A program made the position numbers and the translations under genes. From a bacterium (lineage in GTDB: Bacteria; Bdellovibrionota; Bacteriovoracia; Bacteriovoracales; Bacteriovoracaceae), in NCBI GenBank assembly GCA_030425045.1, contig JAUHVL010000026.1:1-44561 (forward strand): DNA of 44,561 bases. The letters run 5' to 3'. Position 1 is the stretch's first letter. Every line of letters begins with the position of its first letter. Positions 14,467 to 22,204 of this stretch are shown piece after piece. Under the pieces are notes generated by a model. That model had not been told where the DNA came from and made no database searches. It saw only the letters and a program-made list of their open reading frames with translations.

Positions 14467-15231
14467 CTAGTAGTAGTGACCAAAAGTTAGCTTTATTAGG
14501 GTAAAAATAATTTTAAAATTTCCCCAAAAAGAAATTTTGGTAGGTGTTTTGCCTAGTGGGTAGGCCCTTGTGACTGGAATTTCGCAAACTTTTTTTCCAA
14601 GCTTTGGTGCCATGACGGACATATAAAAGAGCAGCTCATAAGCAGAGAAAATATTTCTAAATATATTAAGGTTTTTATCTTCGAGTAATTCCCTTGAAAT
14701 ACCTCGGTAGCCACTGGTGGTGTCGGTATAGCGAAACCTAGCGAGAAAAGATATCCAAGGGCTATGGATAAACTTTACCGCAAATAATCTCGATAGAGGT
14801 GTATTGATATGCTCTCCGCCTTCGATAAATCTTGATCCTTGAATGAAGTCATGGCCTTCTTTTAGTTTCTCAATAAAAGTTGGAATAGACTCAATACTAT
14901 CTTTATTATTTCCATCGATAGTCACGACTCCCTTATAACCTTGAGAGAGAAGGTAGGAAAAGCCCATTCTAAATTGAGCTCCTTGTTTACCAGGTCCTTC
15001 TTTAATTAAAAGAGTTCTGACAGCGTATTTTGTTAAGTTCTCACTACTGGTAGATCCATCATTTGAACCCCCATCAAAGATGATAATATCTGCGTGATGA
15101 TGAATACCGAATTGAAACATTCTTTCGAGCTGTTTTAGGATTTTATCTCCTTCATTTAAAAGGGGGATTCCAACACAGTAGTCATGTTTTTTTGGAGAAA
15201 ACTCAAATATTTTAAATTGAGGAACTTCCAT
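14467..15231 (-). CDS. GT2-family glycosyltransferase
   Basis: 254 residues, soluble GT-A fold of the polyprenyl-phosphate-sugar synthase type. CVGIPLLNEGDKI is the first strand, DIIIFDGGSNDGST the nucleotide-sugar site, VVTIDGNNKDS stands where DxD normally lies (here D-G-N), then IQGSRFIEGG and TDTTSGYRGISREL, as in dolichol-phosphate-mannose-synthase-like enzymes. No membrane anchor. It is the last gene of the six-gene minus-strand cassette; its ATG overlaps the stop of the previous gene (TAATG). Confidence 0.85.
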   Translation of the reverse strand: MEVPQFKIFEFSPKKHDYCVGIPLLNEGDKILKQLERMFQFGIHHHADIIIFDGGSNDGSTSSENLTKYAVRTLLIKEGPGKQGAQFRMGFSYLLSQGYKGVVTIDGNNKDSIESIPTFIEKLKEGHDFIQGSRFIEGGEHINTPLSRLFAVKFIHSPWISFLARFRYTDTTSGYRGISRELLEDKNLNIFRNIFSAYELLFYMSVMAPKLGKKVCEIPVTRAYPLGKTPTKISFWGNFKIIFTLIKLTFGHYY

Positions 15232-16037
15232 TATGGTTGATATATTCCTTCGACAAATTTAATGTTGTCTTTTGCTGTTTGTACATCGGTATAGAGCATT
15301 TCTATAGAGACGTATTTATCGTAGTTTAACTCAGTCAGTGTGTTTCTAATTTCAGTATGAAGGTTCTCATCTTCCGGTAGTGGTTTTAAAAAGGGCTCAC
15401 TAAGATGAATATGATTGATAAAGGGGAAGCTTTGTTGAATGACTTCACGAGCGTTAGATTGATTTAGCTTAACAGTCGAGAAATCAAGATTGAGCCTTAA
15501 TCCCGGAGAATTTACTTTTTCTAAAAAATTGAGTGTCTCTTTGGTTGTTGTTAAGAAGTTTGCTCCATAATCGCTGGCATTTGGCTCTAGTGAAACAATA
15601 GTATTTTTTTCAATGGCATAGTGAGCAAGCTTTTTAAAAAAGAGATAAGCAAGATCAAAAGCCTCATCCTGAGAAATGCTATCTGAGATAAAACGATTCT
15701 TAGGAGATCCAAAGACTATATTTTTTATTCCTAAATGAGATGTAAAATCAATCACATTCATCATATGCTGAAACAGTCGCTCTCTATTTATTTCTTCTTT
15801 AAATAAAAATAATGATTCGGTATTAAAAAGAATAGACTGGATTGAAATGAGAGGAAGCCCAATCTCACGATGCTTTAGTTTAAGTTTATTAAGTTCCTCT
15901 TTCGAGCTTAAGGGAAAGTTTTGCGGTAAATGCTCTGGAACACATTCTATACCGGAGAATTTAGTCGTTTGAAGAAATGATAGCATTTCCTCATCATGTT
16001 CTTTTTTCCATGCAAGATTTGAGATTGCTAACTTCAT
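15231..16037 (-). CDS. Sugar phosphate isomerase/epimerase (xylose-isomerase-like TIM barrel)
   Basis: 268 residues with the AP-endonuclease-2-like TIM-barrel pattern. The expected metal ligands lie at the ends of strands: Glu in VSLEPNASDYG, Asp in LRLNLDFSTVKL, His in INHIHLSEPF and Glu in YVSIEMLY. Members isomerise or epimerise free or phosphorylated sugars, inositols and hydroxypyruvate. It overlaps the SDR gene by ATGA and the GT2 gene by one base. In context it probably makes or tailors the sugar transferred by the neighbouring glycosyltransferases. Confidence 0.82.
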   Translation of the reverse strand: MKLAISNLAWKKEHDEEMLSFLQTTKFSGIECVPEHLPQNFPLSSKEELNKLKLKHREIGLPLISIQSILFNTESLFLFKEEINRERLFQHMMNVIDFTSHLGIKNIVFGSPKNRFISDSISQDEAFDLAYLFFKKLAHYAIEKNTIVSLEPNASDYGANFLTTTKETLNFLEKVNSPGLRLNLDFSTVKLNQSNAREVIQQSFPFINHIHLSEPFLKPLPEDENLHTEIRNTLTELNYDKYVSIEMLYTDVQTAKDNIKFVEGIYQP

Positions 16038-16960
16038 AATGCCACTTTGTTTTTTTGATAGAATGCTTTTAACTCTTTTAAGACTTCATCTTTTGAGTAC
16101 AGGTATGGCGAGTTATTCCCATATTTTGTCATCATATTAAAGTTTTGTTTTTGAGCTTCACAAATGGAAAAGTCATTTCCTGTTAGGTGTTTTGCTAACT
16201 CTTTTGCACTGATAGGGGGAGAACAAATATTGAGCTCTTTTAGTGAGTTCTCTATAGCAAAAGTTATGTCTTTCCAAATATGATCAAGATTATAAAACTG
16301 ATACATCGACTCTGCATTGGTGAAGTTTAGGGCGGAAAAGCCAACGTCTTTGAAGAAGTCTTGTAGTTCTTTGAACTGATCTGAAGAGAGGTCCTGTGAA
16401 CATTCCCAGAGTTTTCCGTTGAAGGAGTATGAACTCTCTAAGAGTTCGCTTTTGGGATGATTTGATAACTCTTTGTATTTTTCTTCCGATAAAAATTTTG
16501 GTGCTATTTTTATGAGGTCAAAGATAAAGTTCTTTTTGAGCCCCTCTCCAAAAAGTGCAGGCAAACGTATTATATGACGCTCTGGAAAGTGCTCTGAAAG
16601 CTCTAACTCAGTAATTCTTCTATTCTTACCGTAGGGCAAAGACTGCTCAAAACTGGGAGCTTCATTTTCTAATTGGTTTTCAGACCCTTGTTTATAAACC
16701 GATATCGTGGAGATTAGGACAAGCCTTTTGGTGCTCACTGTTTTTAAGAGATTTGTTAAGACTCTTATATTGGCGAGGTCTTCAGCTTCATTTTTGTTAG
16801 CAAGCCACATGGCCGCTGGGACTCCTGCACATACAACCAAATCGAATTCACCATTTTTGATTTCACTTATATTTTTCGAGTTATAAAAATGAGTAAACTT
16901 GTGTTGATTAGCTATATTACTTCCAACAAAGCCTGTATGACCGATAAGTGCACTTTTCAT
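16034..16960 (-). CDS. NAD(P)-dependent sugar epimerase/dehydratase (extended SDR-like)
   Basis: 308 residues. Rossmann motif GHTGFVGSN (7-15), CAGVPAAMWLAN in place of the usual NNAG strand, STISVYKQ with the catalytic Ser/Thr region, and PYGKNRRITELE, where Y110 is in the catalytic tyrosine position but the residue four places on is Arg114 rather than the usual Lys. HIIRLPALFGEGLKKN follows as in sugar-nucleotide SDRs. GAGGAAT precedes the ATG. Probably acts on a nucleotide sugar; exact reaction unknown, and the Lys-to-Arg change should be kept in mind. Confidence 0.8.
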   Translation of the reverse strand: MKSALIGHTGFVGSNIANQHKFTHFYNSKNISEIKNGEFDLVVCAGVPAAMWLANKNEAEDLANIRVLTNLLKTVSTKRLVLISTISVYKQGSENQLENEAPSFEQSLPYGKNRRITELELSEHFPERHIIRLPALFGEGLKKNFIFDLIKIAPKFLSEEKYKELSNHPKSELLESSYSFNGKLWECSQDLSSDQFKELQDFFKDVGFSALNFTNAESMYQFYNLDHIWKDITFAIENSLKELNICSPPISAKELAKHLTGNDFSICEAQKQNFNMMTKYGNNSPYLYSKDEVLKELKAFYQKNKVAL

Positions 16961-16969
16961 ATCTATTCC

Positions 16970-17923
16970 TCAAGAGTCTGACTTCACATTCCACTTTAAT
17001 CTTTCAGTTGACGTTGGCCCCCTCTTTTCAAAAAGAATATCGTACTCTTTTGACATCCATCTTTCGTCAACAAGTCTGGCCATATATTCACCGTAAATAA
17101 AAAGGACTAAAAAAAGAATACAAAACTGTACTGAAATAAAAAGACTTAAAGAAGTCCATCCTTCCATTACTTCTTGTTTAAAGAGATTCACCATAAAGAC
17201 ATAAAGAGATATTAAAAAGGCCATCATTCCACCACCAAGGCCTAAAAGATTAAAAATTCGAAGAAGCTTGGTAGAGTTAAAGACCAAAAGTTTTAAAACT
17301 TTTTGAAGACCTGAGATATACGATTTCTGAGAATCCTCTCGATAGTTGATATAAGAATAGTGAGAAGCGTTTTGAATGATTGAGAGATTCAATTGAGAAA
17401 GTAGTTTTTTTCTTGAAAGGGCAATATTCAGGGCCCCTCTTGAAATTGCTTTAAAATGAGTCAGCCCTGAAGGGATTTTTACACCGAGGGTATAAGTCGA
17501 AATGATATTAAAAAGCTTATGAGAGAGTTGATAGAAAGCGGGAGAAGGTTTTGAGTTCTTTCCTAGAATCACAGGTGTATCAATATCAATTTTTTCGATA
17601 CTTTCATTAATTAAATTAAGCGGAGTAGAGGTTAAGTTAGTTGTGATAACGATATCACCAATCGCATTTTCTAAGCCTGCTGCAAATGCTAGTTCATCAT
17701 CAACTTCACCAACAAGTTTAAGATATCTTAATCCAGGTGTTTGTTGAATATTTTGAAGATTATTTTGATCTTGATGAGTCGAAACGATGATCACTTCGTA
17801 ATCACTATAATTATTTGAAAGCAGTGTGATAAGTTCTGTGATCGCTGAGTCTGCAGAAACATGTTTGTGCAGCACTACTACAGAAATAAATATTTCTTTT
17901 AAATCAGAGCTTAAATCTTTCAC
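16970..17923 (-). CDS. Membrane GT2-like protein with missing acidic motifs (GtrB-like)
   Basis: 317 residues. The overall plan is that of GtrB/DPM-type GT2 enzymes: an N-terminal GT-A domain (ISVVVLHKHVSADSAITELITLL, DYEVIIVST, GLRYLKL, FAAGLENAIGDIVITTNLTSTP) and two C-terminal TM helices (about 225-245 and 260-282) followed by a GEYMARLVDERW segment typical of GtrB. However the D-x-S-x-D and D-x-D motifs are replaced (THQDQNN and TTNLTSTP), so normal metal-dependent catalysis is doubtful. Starts with GTG and overlaps the FAD-oxidoreductase gene by 20 bases. Could be a degenerate or scaffolding partner. Confidence 0.75.
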   Translation of the reverse strand: MKDLSSDLKEIFISVVVLHKHVSADSAITELITLLSNNYSDYEVIIVSTHQDQNNLQNIQQTPGLRYLKLVGEVDDELAFAAGLENAIGDIVITTNLTSTPLNLINESIEKIDIDTPVILGKNSKPSPAFYQLSHKLFNIISTYTLGVKIPSGLTHFKAISRGALNIALSRKKLLSQLNLSIIQNASHYSYINYREDSQKSYISGLQKVLKLLVFNSTKLLRIFNLLGLGGGMMAFLISLYVFMVNLFKQEVMEGWTSLSLFISVQFCILFLVLFIYGEYMARLVDERWMSKEYDILFEKRGPTSTERLKWNVKSDS

Positions 17924-19025
17924 TATCGTTTTCCATTATCTTAATCATGTCATATACGTTATCAATTTTTGCACCAACAATACAGTGAAGACCTTTGTGC
18001 CCATAATCAAATTTAAATAATATGGGACGGCCGTCATTTTCACTATTTCTTGGAAGGACCGTTTTTATTTCCCATAATGACTTTTTGTATTTTGAATCAG
18101 AAATAATAGGGAGGTATCTGGCCGTATCTCTGACCATATGTCCAAAATGAGTTTTAATTCCCGAAAAAGGGTTCTTGGAGTTTGTTCCATCATGACTGCT
18201 AAGACCTTCTCTCCATTCAGAGTGAGGAGTAAAGCTTACATGACTAAAGGAATGAAGGTTTTCTGCCGGAAAAGGCATTGTCGAAAAAAAGGGGCCACAC
18301 ATAACAGTAATTCCAATATTTCTTATCTCCTCTGGTGGTTCTATCAGGCAAATTTCAGCAACCTCATTGATGATAGGAATGTCTTCAATTTTAAGATCTT
18401 TCATAACCTTATTAATACTCGAATAGGTACAATTAAATACTTGATGAGCTAAAAAAGTGTCTTCTTTATCATTTGAAATAGTGGTGACTTTAAAAAGCTG
18501 TGTTTGTTCTTCAACTTCGATTTTTGTGACCTGATGAGCAAGTTTTGTTTCCGCTGATGTTTGTCCTAAGCGGCTTACAATTTCATCTTTTAATTTTTTT
18601 GAATCAAAGGCAAATTCTTTAGTAAGAAAAACCTCGTCAATGAGATCACGATTAAAAAGAGATTTAATCTTTGATGGGGCGACCTCGCAAGGAGCATCGA
18701 TATTTTTGGTAAATTCATTAAATTGTTTAGCACTAATTTTCGATTGAATTTTAGGGATAGCGTAATATTTATCAAAACTGTCATCAATACATTGGTGAAA
18801 GTCATCAACAAAAATAGGAAAGGAGCGACTTGATCTTAGTGCCGTTAATAATGATCTAGGATAGTGATAGCCATGGTGTATTCGCGCTTGGTTGTTATAA
18901 GATGCTTTGGTCATAAATTCGTTTTCTTTTTCCAAAAGAAGTACGGATTTATTTCTTCTCGCTAAAAAATTTGCCAGATATAATCCAAAAAAACCGCCAC
19001 CAATGACAATATTATCGTATACCAA
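17904..19025 (-). CDS. FAD-dependent oxidoreductase (DAO-like)
   Basis: About 373 residues. N-terminal dinucleotide motif IGGGFFGLYLANFLARRNKSVLLLEKE near residue 8, then QARIHHGYHYPRS, and a C-terminal GLHCIVGAKID. The fold is that of DAO/glycine-oxidase-like flavoenzymes; relatives sit in surface-polysaccharide clusters. The TTG at 19025 is preferred over the TTG at 19031 because AAAGGA lies 7 bases upstream of it. The gene overlaps both neighbours by 14-20 bases. Substrate unknown; perhaps oxidation of a sugar or amino-sugar intermediate. Confidence 0.8.
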   Translation of the reverse strand: MVYDNIVIGGGFFGLYLANFLARRNKSVLLLEKENEFMTKASYNNQARIHHGYHYPRSLLTALRSSRSFPIFVDDFHQCIDDSFDKYYAIPKIQSKISAKQFNEFTKNIDAPCEVAPSKIKSLFNRDLIDEVFLTKEFAFDSKKLKDEIVSRLGQTSAETKLAHQVTKIEVEEQTQLFKVTTISNDKEDTFLAHQVFNCTYSSINKVMKDLKIEDIPIINEVAEICLIEPPEEIRNIGITVMCGPFFSTMPFPAENLHSFSHVSFTPHSEWREGLSSHDGTNSKNPFSGIKTHFGHMVRDTARYLPIISDSKYKKSLWEIKTVLPRNSENDGRPILFKFDYGHKGLHCIVGAKIDNVYDMIKIMENDSERFKL

Positions 19026-20316
19026 ATCCAAGTCCTTTATTACTGATCTTACTTTTGATTAACAATAATAAGTCACCAACAAAAAATCCCCACACCGAAA
19101 AGGCAAAAAGTGTTGCGGGGTAATGCCACAAGATAAAGTTAATATGAGGATGATAGTGAGAGTGAGGCTTCGCCAAGATATGCCAGCTTAGTGCAGGAGT
19201 GAAAGAGAAAAGGGTCGTAATGATGAATGATTTTTTTAATTGAACGTGATCAGCGTACATACCCATTTTATAATAAAAGAGGTAAATCATCATCATCCCT
19301 AAAAAAAGCTTCCAGATTTTTGTTCGAAAGTAATGATCTTTAATTTTAAAAAAGAAAATTTTTGATGTTGTATACTTTTCCAAAACACGACTTAGTAAAC
19401 TCTTTTTGATTTGATTACTTCGTACAATGAGCCCTTGGTCGGGATGAGTTCTTACAGATGCTCGATCTTTGATCACAGCAAAGCTATTTTTCATGCTTCC
19501 AAATATTGGGGAGAGGCTGGCCGTATGAATCACCATCGCCCCAATAAACGCTACAAGAAATGATAAGAAAGTCATCGTCGCTACTTTAAAATATCCAGTG
19601 ATGTTTAATTTCTCTTTTTGCGATAGAAAGTAAAAAAGTGGGGGGACAATAAGTGAAAGCCCAACTGTCGATATATATTCATAACCGGCCAGGGACTTTA
19701 AAAGAACGAGGAAAGCTACTCCTCCATAAAATAACTTATTATGCTTAGACTTTAATTTTGGTTTTAAATACCAAAAATAAAAAGCCGAAAAGAAAAAGGG
19801 GGCCATATTAAGCCACCAAATCCAATATAGGTTTCTTGTCATAATTGTTAACCATGGTGAAAACAAAGAAAAAACTAATGAAAACAAAAATGCGCTGATG
19901 CCAAAGAGCTTTAATAAGATGAGATTAAAAAGTGAAAGCAATATTCCCATCATGACAGAGTTCAGTGCATGGCCGACCTTATCATCACTACCAAAAACTT
20001 TAGCTAGTGCTTGAAAGAGCCGTCCTTGAATTCCATATTGAGAAGTATAGGGAAAGGGGAATTGGCATTTTGATTCACTTTGAAAATCAACTTGTTGATT
20101 AATCTCTAATCGCTTTTGCTCGGTACATAACCAAAGCCCATTCCAATGACTTTTATTATTTTTATAAATGAGGCTTCTTTGCACCAGAGCTTCAGAATCT
20201 TGTTGAAATTCATTAAACTCTTTTTTGGAAACAACAGAAAAAGCGTTATGATAAAAGCCCAATGTGTAGAGAACTATTTGTATTAAAAATACGATGAGTA
20301 TTTTGTAAGGTGACAT
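19012..20316 (-). CDS. Polytopic membrane protein, possible GT-C glycosyltransferase
   Basis: 434 residues with about nine or ten hydrophobic segments. A large loop after the first TM (about 28-90) carries acidic and aromatic residues and the segment PYTSQYGIQGRLFQAL, an arrangement seen in GT-C enzymes that use polyprenyl-phosphate sugars in the periplasm. The C-terminus has HSHYHPHINFILWHYP. It is the first gene of the six-gene cassette and overlaps the next. Assignment to GT-C is an inference from topology and context. Confidence 0.6.
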   Translation of the reverse strand: MSPYKILIVFLIQIVLYTLGFYHNAFSVVSKKEFNEFQQDSEALVQRSLIYKNNKSHWNGLWLCTEQKRLEINQQVDFQSESKCQFPFPYTSQYGIQGRLFQALAKVFGSDDKVGHALNSVMMGILLSLFNLILLKLFGISAFLFSLVFSLFSPWLTIMTRNLYWIWWLNMAPFFFSAFYFWYLKPKLKSKHNKLFYGGVAFLVLLKSLAGYEYISTVGLSLIVPPLFYFLSQKEKLNITGYFKVATMTFLSFLVAFIGAMVIHTASLSPIFGSMKNSFAVIKDRASVRTHPDQGLIVRSNQIKKSLLSRVLEKYTTSKIFFFKIKDHYFRTKIWKLFLGMMMIYLFYYKMGMYADHVQLKKSFIITTLFSFTPALSWHILAKPHSHYHPHINFILWHYPATLFAFSVWGFFVGDLLLLIKSKISNKGLGFGIR

Positions 20317-20398: not shown

Positions 20399-22204
20399 TT
20401 ACTTTATACTTTCACAAAAACTTGTAAAGACCTTCTTATGGCGTTCTAAATCAAACTCAGGAGAGACAGAAACGCGCACAATATAATCTTTATCACCTTC
20501 TTTTGTTGTTCCTTGAGTTGAGGTGGCTGGAATCGTCCAATAGCAGCCTTTTAGTTGGCCATAACTTACGCAAAATTTACTTTGCTCGGGGATTTCTTTA
20601 ATCATCATATTGATAAGTTTTAGGTTGAGCTCTCGTTTATAGAGCTCTCTTTCTTGTTCACTATATCCTTTTGTGGGTAGATCTAATGAGAAAACCGAGG
20701 GGGTAAAGCCCATTTGCGCGAGCTCCTCTGAAACAAAATTGATTTTTGCGCCGGGAAGCTCTTTTTCAATATGATTGACGAACGCTCTGGTGTTTTTATA
20801 GGCATCGGCTATACGTTGATTCATGGAAGGCATTTGTTCTGATAAAACTTCGAGTTGAAAATTAGTGGCCTCGTTATGACATAACTTTAAATGTTTATCG
20901 ACGAAAGAGATAAGTTGCTCTGCTTTTTTATTGGCGACACAATAACCGGCAGTACAAAGACCTCCACTTGGGAACTTAGAGCCACTGACATAAGAAATGG
21001 TTTGGACATTAGCAAGTGAATCGTTAGGTCCTAAAAAGTGAAAATTTGGGCAAAAGGTTTGATCGAGTATAAAGACCGGATCGATCGCTTTGTCTCTCTT
21101 TTTCTCTAATGCCTGTGCTAGTTTCTCTAAGTTGGGAACTTCTACTCTTGGGTTCGTTGGAATTTCGGCGATGATAAAAGGAACGGCTTGTTCCCTCGCT
21201 ACGTGATCTAAAATTTGATCAACACTTGTGACCATATCTCGACCACTATCGACAGGAAGATCAAGAATTTCTACGTGTTCTAATGTTGCCGCTGCTCTTC
21301 TCGCCTGATCGTTTGTTCCTCCATAACAATTTGGAGGGACGATAATTTTGATTTTTTTTCCGGGAAGGTTTTTACCTGCATATTCAATTAATCCCATCGT
21401 AATAGCATACTGAATCGAAAGACCACTGGATCCAAGGACAACCTCACCGTTAGTCTGGGTAATATCATTAATTGTTTTCTTTAAGGGATTGAGGTCAATT
21501 GTTTTACGTCGACTCGATTTATTTTTTAAGAAGTTAAAAGTACTTAAGCAATCTTGAGGAGTCATGGCAATAGACTCTCTTCTTCTTACGTGTTGAATTT
21601 CAGAAATATAAGCTTTGGCTTTTTGAGTGAGACAGAGAGTTAGACTGCCAAGGTTATCATCAACGGCAATGACAAAGTCGATATCTTTATTAAATTCGCT
21701 AAAAAGATGATCAAAGTTTGTCACAAGGATATTTGTTTTTTCGGAATTGATTTCCTCATCTTTGGTGAGGTGAAATGAATAACCATACACATCTCTTAAC
21801 GTCTTTTCATCAAACGAAGCGGGGAGGTTTTGATGAATAATTTGAGAATCAATCGTTTCTAATTTATTTTTTCTCAAGATAGCAAAGAGGGGCATATTAG
21901 TGGAAGAAAAGGAGATGACGTCATCACTGCTAAGATTACACTTTTTGGCAATAGTCCACTCTAAAAAACATGAAAGGGGATGGCCTAGTCGAATATAATC
22001 AAAAGCAGTAGGAAGAAGTTTTAATTTTTCATCAAGCTCATTTGGATCGTTAGTATCGATGAGTTTTTCTAGTTCTTCTAAAAACTCAGTTTTTGCTTTG
22101 CTTTCGTTATAAATATCAAGTCTATGTGTTGTGAGCTTTGCCCACTCAGACGGAGCATTTTCAAGGACACGATCTATAAAACTGTTGATTGATTGGTTAT
22201 TCAT
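20399..22204 (-). CDS. Long PLP-dependent Cys/Met-metabolism-type enzyme with N-terminal extension
   Basis: 601 residues, against about 400 for cystathionine gamma-synthase/lyase relatives. Residues from about 240 follow the fold-type-I plan: GSSGLSIQYAITMGL (258-272), IVPPNCYGGTND, AEIPTNPRVEVPNLEKLA (346-363), FILDQTF with D381 and YVSGSKFPSGG with the Schiff-base lysine K410. The first ~235 residues match nothing I recognise; they include a helical part and a domain with VTNFDHLFSE...FVIAVDDNLGSL. Possibly a two-domain enzyme that makes an amino-acid or amino-sugar precursor. It lies 82 bases upstream of the glycan cassette on the same strand. Reaction unknown. Confidence 0.8.
   Translation of the reverse strand: MNNQSINSFIDRVLENAPSEWAKLTTHRLDIYNESKAKTEFLEELEKLIDTNDPNELDEKLKLLPTAFDYIRLGHPLSCFLEWTIAKKCNLSSDDVISFSSTNMPLFAILRKNKLETIDSQIIHQNLPASFDEKTLRDVYGYSFHLTKDEEINSEKTNILVTNFDHLFSEFNKDIDFVIAVDDNLGSLTLCLTQKAKAYISEIQHVRRRESIAMTPQDCLSTFNFLKNKSSRRKTIDLNPLKKTINDITQTNGEVVLGSSGLSIQYAITMGLIEYAGKNLPGKKIKIIVPPNCYGGTNDQARRAAATLEHVEILDLPVDSGRDMVTSVDQILDHVAREQAVPFIIAEIPTNPRVEVPNLEKLAQALEKKRDKAIDPVFILDQTFCPNFHFLGPNDSLANVQTISYVSGSKFPSGGLCTAGYCVANKKAEQLISFVDKHLKLCHNEATNFQLEVLSEQMPSMNQRIADAYKNTRAFVNHIEKELPGAKINFVSEELAQMGFTPSVFSLDLPTKGYSEQERELYKRELNLKLINMMIKEIPEQSKFCVSYGQLKGCYWTIPATSTQGTTKEGDKDYIVRVSVSPEFDLERHKKVFTSFCESIK

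Follow-up and report, generated by a model that had tools for sequence, protein, structure and literature searches.

The window, by which we mean the whole 44,561-nucleotide stretch of DNA analysed, carries a six-gene cassette that we read, with a probability of roughly 0.6, as a Gtr-like extracytoplasmic side-chain system in which the donor sugar is remodelled on undecaprenyl phosphate along a 4-deoxy-sugar route. As an architecture, a Gtr-like extracytoplasmic glycosylation cassette combined with sugar remodelling is very probable. Of the readings considered, the one proposed by an earlier note, in which these genes make an unusual polyprenyl-linked sugar and transfer it in the periplasm, has the best support from the conserved gene content and the GT-C fold described below. 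The kind of system is known; what is new is the trio of remodelling enzymes, together with a GtrB-like protein that lacks the DxD motif. All six open reading frames were confirmed; they occupy the minus strand from 14467 to 20316 and follow one another as the earlier note had described:

19012..20316, minus strand: GT-C glycosyltransferase of 434 aa (fold assigned from a model; no Pfam or NCBIfam match)
17904..19031, minus strand: FAD-dependent oxidoreductase with a DAO fold, 375 aa, TTG start (Pfam DAO, 8e-14)
16970..17923, minus strand: GtrB-like membrane GT2, 317 aa, GTG start (profile and model match to GtrB)
16034..16960, minus strand: NAD(P)-dependent SDR, 308 aa (Pfam Epimerase, 1.8e-5)
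15231..16037, minus strand: xylose-isomerase-like TIM barrel, 268 aa (Pfam AP_endonuc_2, 2.5e-18)
14467..15231, minus strand: soluble GT2 of the dolichyl/undecaprenyl-phosphate hexose synthase type, 254 aa (NCBIfam AglJ, 2.8e-13)

The tight packing reported beforehand, with overlaps or gaps of at most 9 bases, is borne out by the junctions, which run from the 434-aa gene to the soluble GT2 gene as two successive 20-base overlaps, the single gap of 9 bases, a 4-base overlap and a 1-base overlap. Likewise, the families first assigned from the letters alone were upheld by Pfam and NCBIfam, profile and model comparisons, which give a DAO-type FAD enzyme, an AP_endonuc_2 TIM barrel, an SDR, a GT2 and a GtrB-like GT2. 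The window cassette encodes no small flippase (GtrA or SMR), and no GtrA was found in the genome of the window organism, where a tandem SMR pair outside the cassette is the only flippase-type candidate found. Just upstream, on the same strand and outside the conserved cassette, lies a gene for a 601-aa PLP enzyme (20399-22204) with a weak match to Cys/Met-metabolism enzymes.

Relatives of the cassette were gathered from plasmids, genome contigs and viral contigs, yielding 94 loci in total, in which membership of the core was established by ORF calling and profile searches. On the genome contigs, a single-sequence query returned no matches, whereas an alignment query recovered 440 stretches encoding relatives, 80 of which were kept. 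All five core genes (FAD enzyme, GtrB-like protein, SDR, TIM barrel and soluble GT2) lie on one strand in 59 of the 94 loci, spread over many phyla; many of the incomplete loci are short contigs. The core falls within 6.5 kb in 55 of the 59 full sets, with a median span of 4.8 kb. Compared across genomes, as the earlier note had suggested, the gene content proved conserved in many phyla, and the gene order of the window, FAD-GtrB-SDR-TIM-GT2, is the most frequent (22/59), followed by FAD-GtrB-GT2-SDR-TIM (18/59). The five-gene core thus recurs far beyond chance. Distances within the gene families also correlate between families, with r values of 0.63-0.92 against a maximum of 0.26 in 1000 label shuffles, the highest values being those of the FAD/GtrB-like (0.92) and SDR/TIM (0.86) pairs; since label shuffling keeps shared ancestry, this congruence speaks for co-inheritance and not for physical interaction. 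Of the 59 full sets, 46 come with a variable polytopic protein and 31 with an SMR or GtrA flippase, which, together with the GT-C fold, is as expected for a Gtr-type system.

The fold of the 434-aa protein, described earlier as GT-C-like and polytopic, was examined in an AlphaFold2 model built from a ten-sequence alignment (pLDDT 74, pTM 0.78), and the predicted fold is indeed GT-C. With VIA-align, the top match of the model is ArnT with undecaprenyl phosphate (5f15; Z 18.4, 4.5 A over 326 residues), followed by ALG12, Pmt4, OST, AftD, AftA and others; the first 44 rows of the ranking are GT-C or related enzymes, after which Z falls to 5.2. GT-C matches of the same model in Foldseek were weak, with E of 0.15 or worse. 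The family conserves the motifs YxxQxG, LYW, GYEY and SWxxLAKxHxxxH, and for the 434-aa protein we propose the role of moving the sugar off polyprenyl phosphate and onto an acceptor at the surface.

Three enzymes of the core are candidates for remodelling the sugar before transfer. The FAD enzyme matches glycerol-3-phosphate oxidase by profile (4x9m, E 1e-8), with a conserved His52 that aligns with a GlpO His, and its motifs are invariant across 87 relatives. Type 2 glycerol-3-phosphate oxidase, the closest solved structure, acts on a secondary alcohol, and we propose that the cassette enzyme oxidises a secondary hydroxyl of a lipid-linked sugar. In the TIM barrel, an invariant metal quartet (E151-D185-H211-E246) reproduces the Glu-Asp-His-Glu arrangement of ketose 3-epimerases. 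Its profile matches comprise ketose 3-epimerases, the 3-keto-D-glucoside 4-epimerase 6wn6 and AsbF (3dx5), a dehydratase, with epimerases rather than dehydratases as the nearest; IolE and AsbF, which belong to the same superfamily, carry out beta-hydroxyketone dehydration. An epimerase or dehydratase acting on a keto intermediate is therefore the role proposed for the TIM barrel. All aligned members of the SDR family have YxxxR where classical SDRs have YxxxK, with Y110 and R114 invariant in 66 relatives, and we propose that the SDR serves as a reductase.

A candidate for the sugar itself comes from Escherichia coli. In strain NCTC10973, the set lies between gnd and ugd, directly downstream of gnd and beside an ABC-transporter rfb of the O89/O101/O162 type. 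The passages of PMC13168486 that concern these serotypes describe a 4-deoxy-D-arabino-hexose side branch on the O162 O antigen and an O101 antigen without that branch; citing Liu et al. 2020, they present as a hypothesis that the genes directly downstream of gnd add the O162 branch, and that the same genes, interrupted by a transposon in O101, do not. Among 326 genomes with a related rfb, five match at an identity of at least 99%, and exactly those five carry the set, which is intact in two strains (NCTC10973 being of this type) and interrupted in three by IS4, which sits at base 13 within the FAD gene. The insertion removes the FAD start, and the first in-frame ATG lies after GGGFFG, so that this motif is lost from the open reading frame. 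These observations concern genotype, and the match of the five strains to the O101 and O162 phenotypes is taken from the literature statement. The earlier note had not recognised the set as a known pathway; this holds in that no characterised pathway with these enzymes was found in the open-licence literature (papers beyond it may treat the pathway), but the set does match the gene group downstream of gnd in O162.

The link to 4-deoxy-D-arabino-hexose is hypothetical, drawn from one serotype pair and a published gene-assignment hypothesis, and because the window proteins share 30-50% identity with those of the E. coli set, the sugar may differ; we lean slightly towards 4-deoxy-D-arabino-hexose or a near relative as the product in the window organism. 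Further 4-deoxyhexose strains include Franconibacter pulveris O1 and Citrobacter, the sequence of the Franconibacter locus being stated as unavailable (PMC11231755). At one rhamnose-type locus of E. coli that has the cassette (L095), none of the genes links the locus to a published 4-deoxyhexose structure. A xylulofuranose side chain, at which the isomerase had hinted, was also considered as the product and set aside, as the literature gave it no support and the O162 link pointed elsewhere. A PRPP-based pentofuranose system was ruled out, since the cassette encodes no such synthase.

One alternative keeps the architecture and lets the FAD/TIM/SDR trio alter stereochemistry only, leaving an epimeric hexose or a pentose on the lipid. 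Ketose 3-epimerases and the 3-keto-D-glucoside 4-epimerase, to which the TIM barrel is most closely related among solved structures, would fit such a role, as would an oxidase-plus-reductase logic identical to that of DprE1/DprE2 in the formation of arabinofuranose (PMC11127046). We nevertheless consider it unlikely, because a 4-deoxy sugar, whose formation requires the loss of a hydroxyl, is what the only serotype pair of known structure indicates, and because no PRPP-dependent polyprenyl-phosphoribose synthase was found among the six open reading frames or their direct neighbours.

We give a similarly low probability to a cytoplasmic route in which the trio modifies either a nucleotide sugar or a free sugar phosphate that is only afterwards handed to the lipid. 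The pairing of the FAD and GtrB-like genes, which are adjacent in most loci and reach the r of 0.92 given above, is tight and points to a flavoenzyme that cooperates with a lipid-binding membrane protein; moreover, the window cassette encodes no nucleotidyltransferase. In favour of a cytoplasmic route, nucleotide carriers are the usual site of deoxysugar synthesis, and the trio is present without the GT2s in viral contigs.

The two GT2 proteins that the earlier note had placed in a membrane-linked sugar system both retain their family assignments, but the membrane-bound one probably does not synthesise a donor. This protein matches GtrB closely by profile (sll0501, E 1.4e-57) and by model (9nyf, Z 22.0), and keeps the membrane part of GtrB, with two C-terminal TM helices. 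Where GtrB has its metal/nucleotide-binding DxD motif (DADLQ), however, the window protein has TTNLTST. Since DxD is degenerate in 70 of the 71 members of the family, we regard a donor-synthase role as improbable; judged from its sequence, the protein may instead be a lipid-binding membrane scaffold. That it might be an active second polyprenyl-phosphate sugar transferase tolerating the loss of DxD, with the cassette adding two sugars, appears very unlikely, for although the GtrB fold and membrane anchor are retained and some GT2 enzymes function with an altered DxD, the degenerate members share no common replacement. The soluble GT2, in turn, matches dolichol-P-mannose synthase by profile (5mlz, E 9.7e-13) and carries DGGSxDGS plus an invariant DGNxKD. 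Given a GtrB fold without DxD on one side and a DPMS-like soluble GT2 with DGNxKD on the other, donor synthesis is assigned to the soluble enzyme, a putative polyprenyl-phosphate-hexose synthase. On plasmid p.A of Cereibacter sphaeroides (L099:8627-11146), the soluble GT2 and a PMT_2 (GT-C) domain form a natural fusion.

In the 4-deoxy-sugar route that we favour, the soluble GT2 (14467-15231) would load a hexose, probably glucose, onto undecaprenyl phosphate, and the DxD-less GtrB-like protein (16970-17923) would keep the lipid-linked sugar at the membrane. The FAD enzyme would then oxidise C2; the TIM barrel would eliminate the 4-OH of the 2-keto sugar, in a beta-hydroxyketone dehydration comparable to those of IolE and AsbF, to give a 4-deoxy-2,3-diketone; and the SDR, with reduced flavin, would return hydride to C3 and C2, yielding 4-deoxy-D-arabino-hexose. 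The lipid would next be flipped, a step for which many relatives carry an SMR or GtrA gene and the window cassette none, and the GT-C enzyme (19012-20316) would attach the sugar to a surface polymer. Chemically, once C2 is a ketone, the 4-OH is a leaving group in the beta position, its elimination produces the 4-deoxy-2,3-diketone, and reducing both keto groups resets C2 and C3; from this combination of elimination and double reduction, we infer that three enzymes would be enough for the differences from glucose at C2, C3 and C4. In its most specific form, the scheme has the deoxysugar built on polyprenyl phosphate and not on a nucleotide, with a catalytically dead GtrB-like protein presenting the hexose to the oxidase, the TIM dehydratase and the SDR, so that O4 is removed, C2 and C3 are inverted and the redox equivalents are recycled before export and GT-C transfer; this we put forward as a possibility at somewhat below even odds. 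The exact order of the chemical steps on the lipid is equally tentative. The protein families and folds, the conserved module, the losses of motifs, the mobility and the genotype in E. coli are direct results of the analysis, while we infer the order of the first five steps, the sugar of the window organism and the acceptor.

Several known systems share parts of this scheme. Like the GtrA/GtrB/Gtr* systems for O-antigen glucosylation (Shigella, Salmonella, phage-borne), the cassette combines a putative polyprenyl-phosphate donor, a GtrB fold and a GT-C transferase, with an SMR/GtrA-type flippase in many of its relatives and carriage by phages and plasmids; unlike them, it adds three proposed sugar-remodelling enzymes and a separate soluble candidate synthase, and its GtrB-like protein lacks DxD. 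The mycobacterial DPA pathway (Rv3806c, DprE1, DprE2, Rv3789, Emb/Aft) likewise deploys a flavoenzyme and an SDR on a polyprenyl-linked sugar, along with an SMR-like flippase and GT-C transferases. It differs, however, in its PRPP-based synthase, in having no TIM barrel and in its flavoenzyme, DprE1 being a VAO-type flavoprotein whereas that of the cassette is DAO-type. The three-component pentofuranose system of Citrobacter youngae O1/O2 (PMC11127046) also has a polyprenyl-linked cytoplasmic donor, an SDR acting on the lipid and GT-C transfer, but uses a PRPP-based synthase and a MATE flippase, and that source mentions neither an FAD nor a TIM-barrel enzyme. The E. coli O162/O101 set downstream of gnd (PMC13168486) shares with the window a single operon that holds all five families of the core plus a polytopic protein; it differs in having an SMR (EmrE-like) gene and in a GT-C protein that falls outside the sequence family of the window's own.

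The window cassette looks acquired, because the FAD gene has no relative in 36 other genomes of the organism's family; its GC content gave no indication of recent transfer. The set was recovered on a 10.8-kb Psychrobacter plasmid and on alphaproteobacterial plasmids, and it is present in 9 of 295 genomes of Enterobacteriaceae, 7 of 5426 of E. coli and 1 of 17 of the genus of locus L011. This sporadic distribution is typical of a variable surface antigen, and carriage by phages and plasmids is as expected for antigen-switching cassettes. A prophage-like locus (L089:2309-15266) contains the full core cassette together with tail tape-measure-like and repressor-like genes, and a gene for a 531-aa polytopic protein on the other strand; it is probably a lysogenic-conversion cassette. 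On the E. coli plasmid pCUPF09A from pig faeces (L094:7980-14839), the cassette lies beside IS elements and aminoglycoside phosphotransferase genes. Three viral contigs (L090, L091 and L092, one of them 372 kb long) encode distant FAD, SDR and TIM homologues side by side (e.g. L092:7989-10433) without either of the GT2s, and L093 encodes the FAD enzyme and SDR only.

No bacterial route to 4-deoxyhexoses has been worked out in the literature searched. If our reading is true, the cassette would provide a gene set for a 4-deoxyhexose and a marker by which 4-deoxy-sugar antigens could be predicted across hundreds of genomes, as judged from the 440 stretches encoding relatives, and would exemplify deoxysugar chemistry that takes place on a lipid carrier. 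It would also mean that antigen-modifying cassettes borne by phages and plasmids can bring, beyond transferases, a whole sugar-remodelling pathway.
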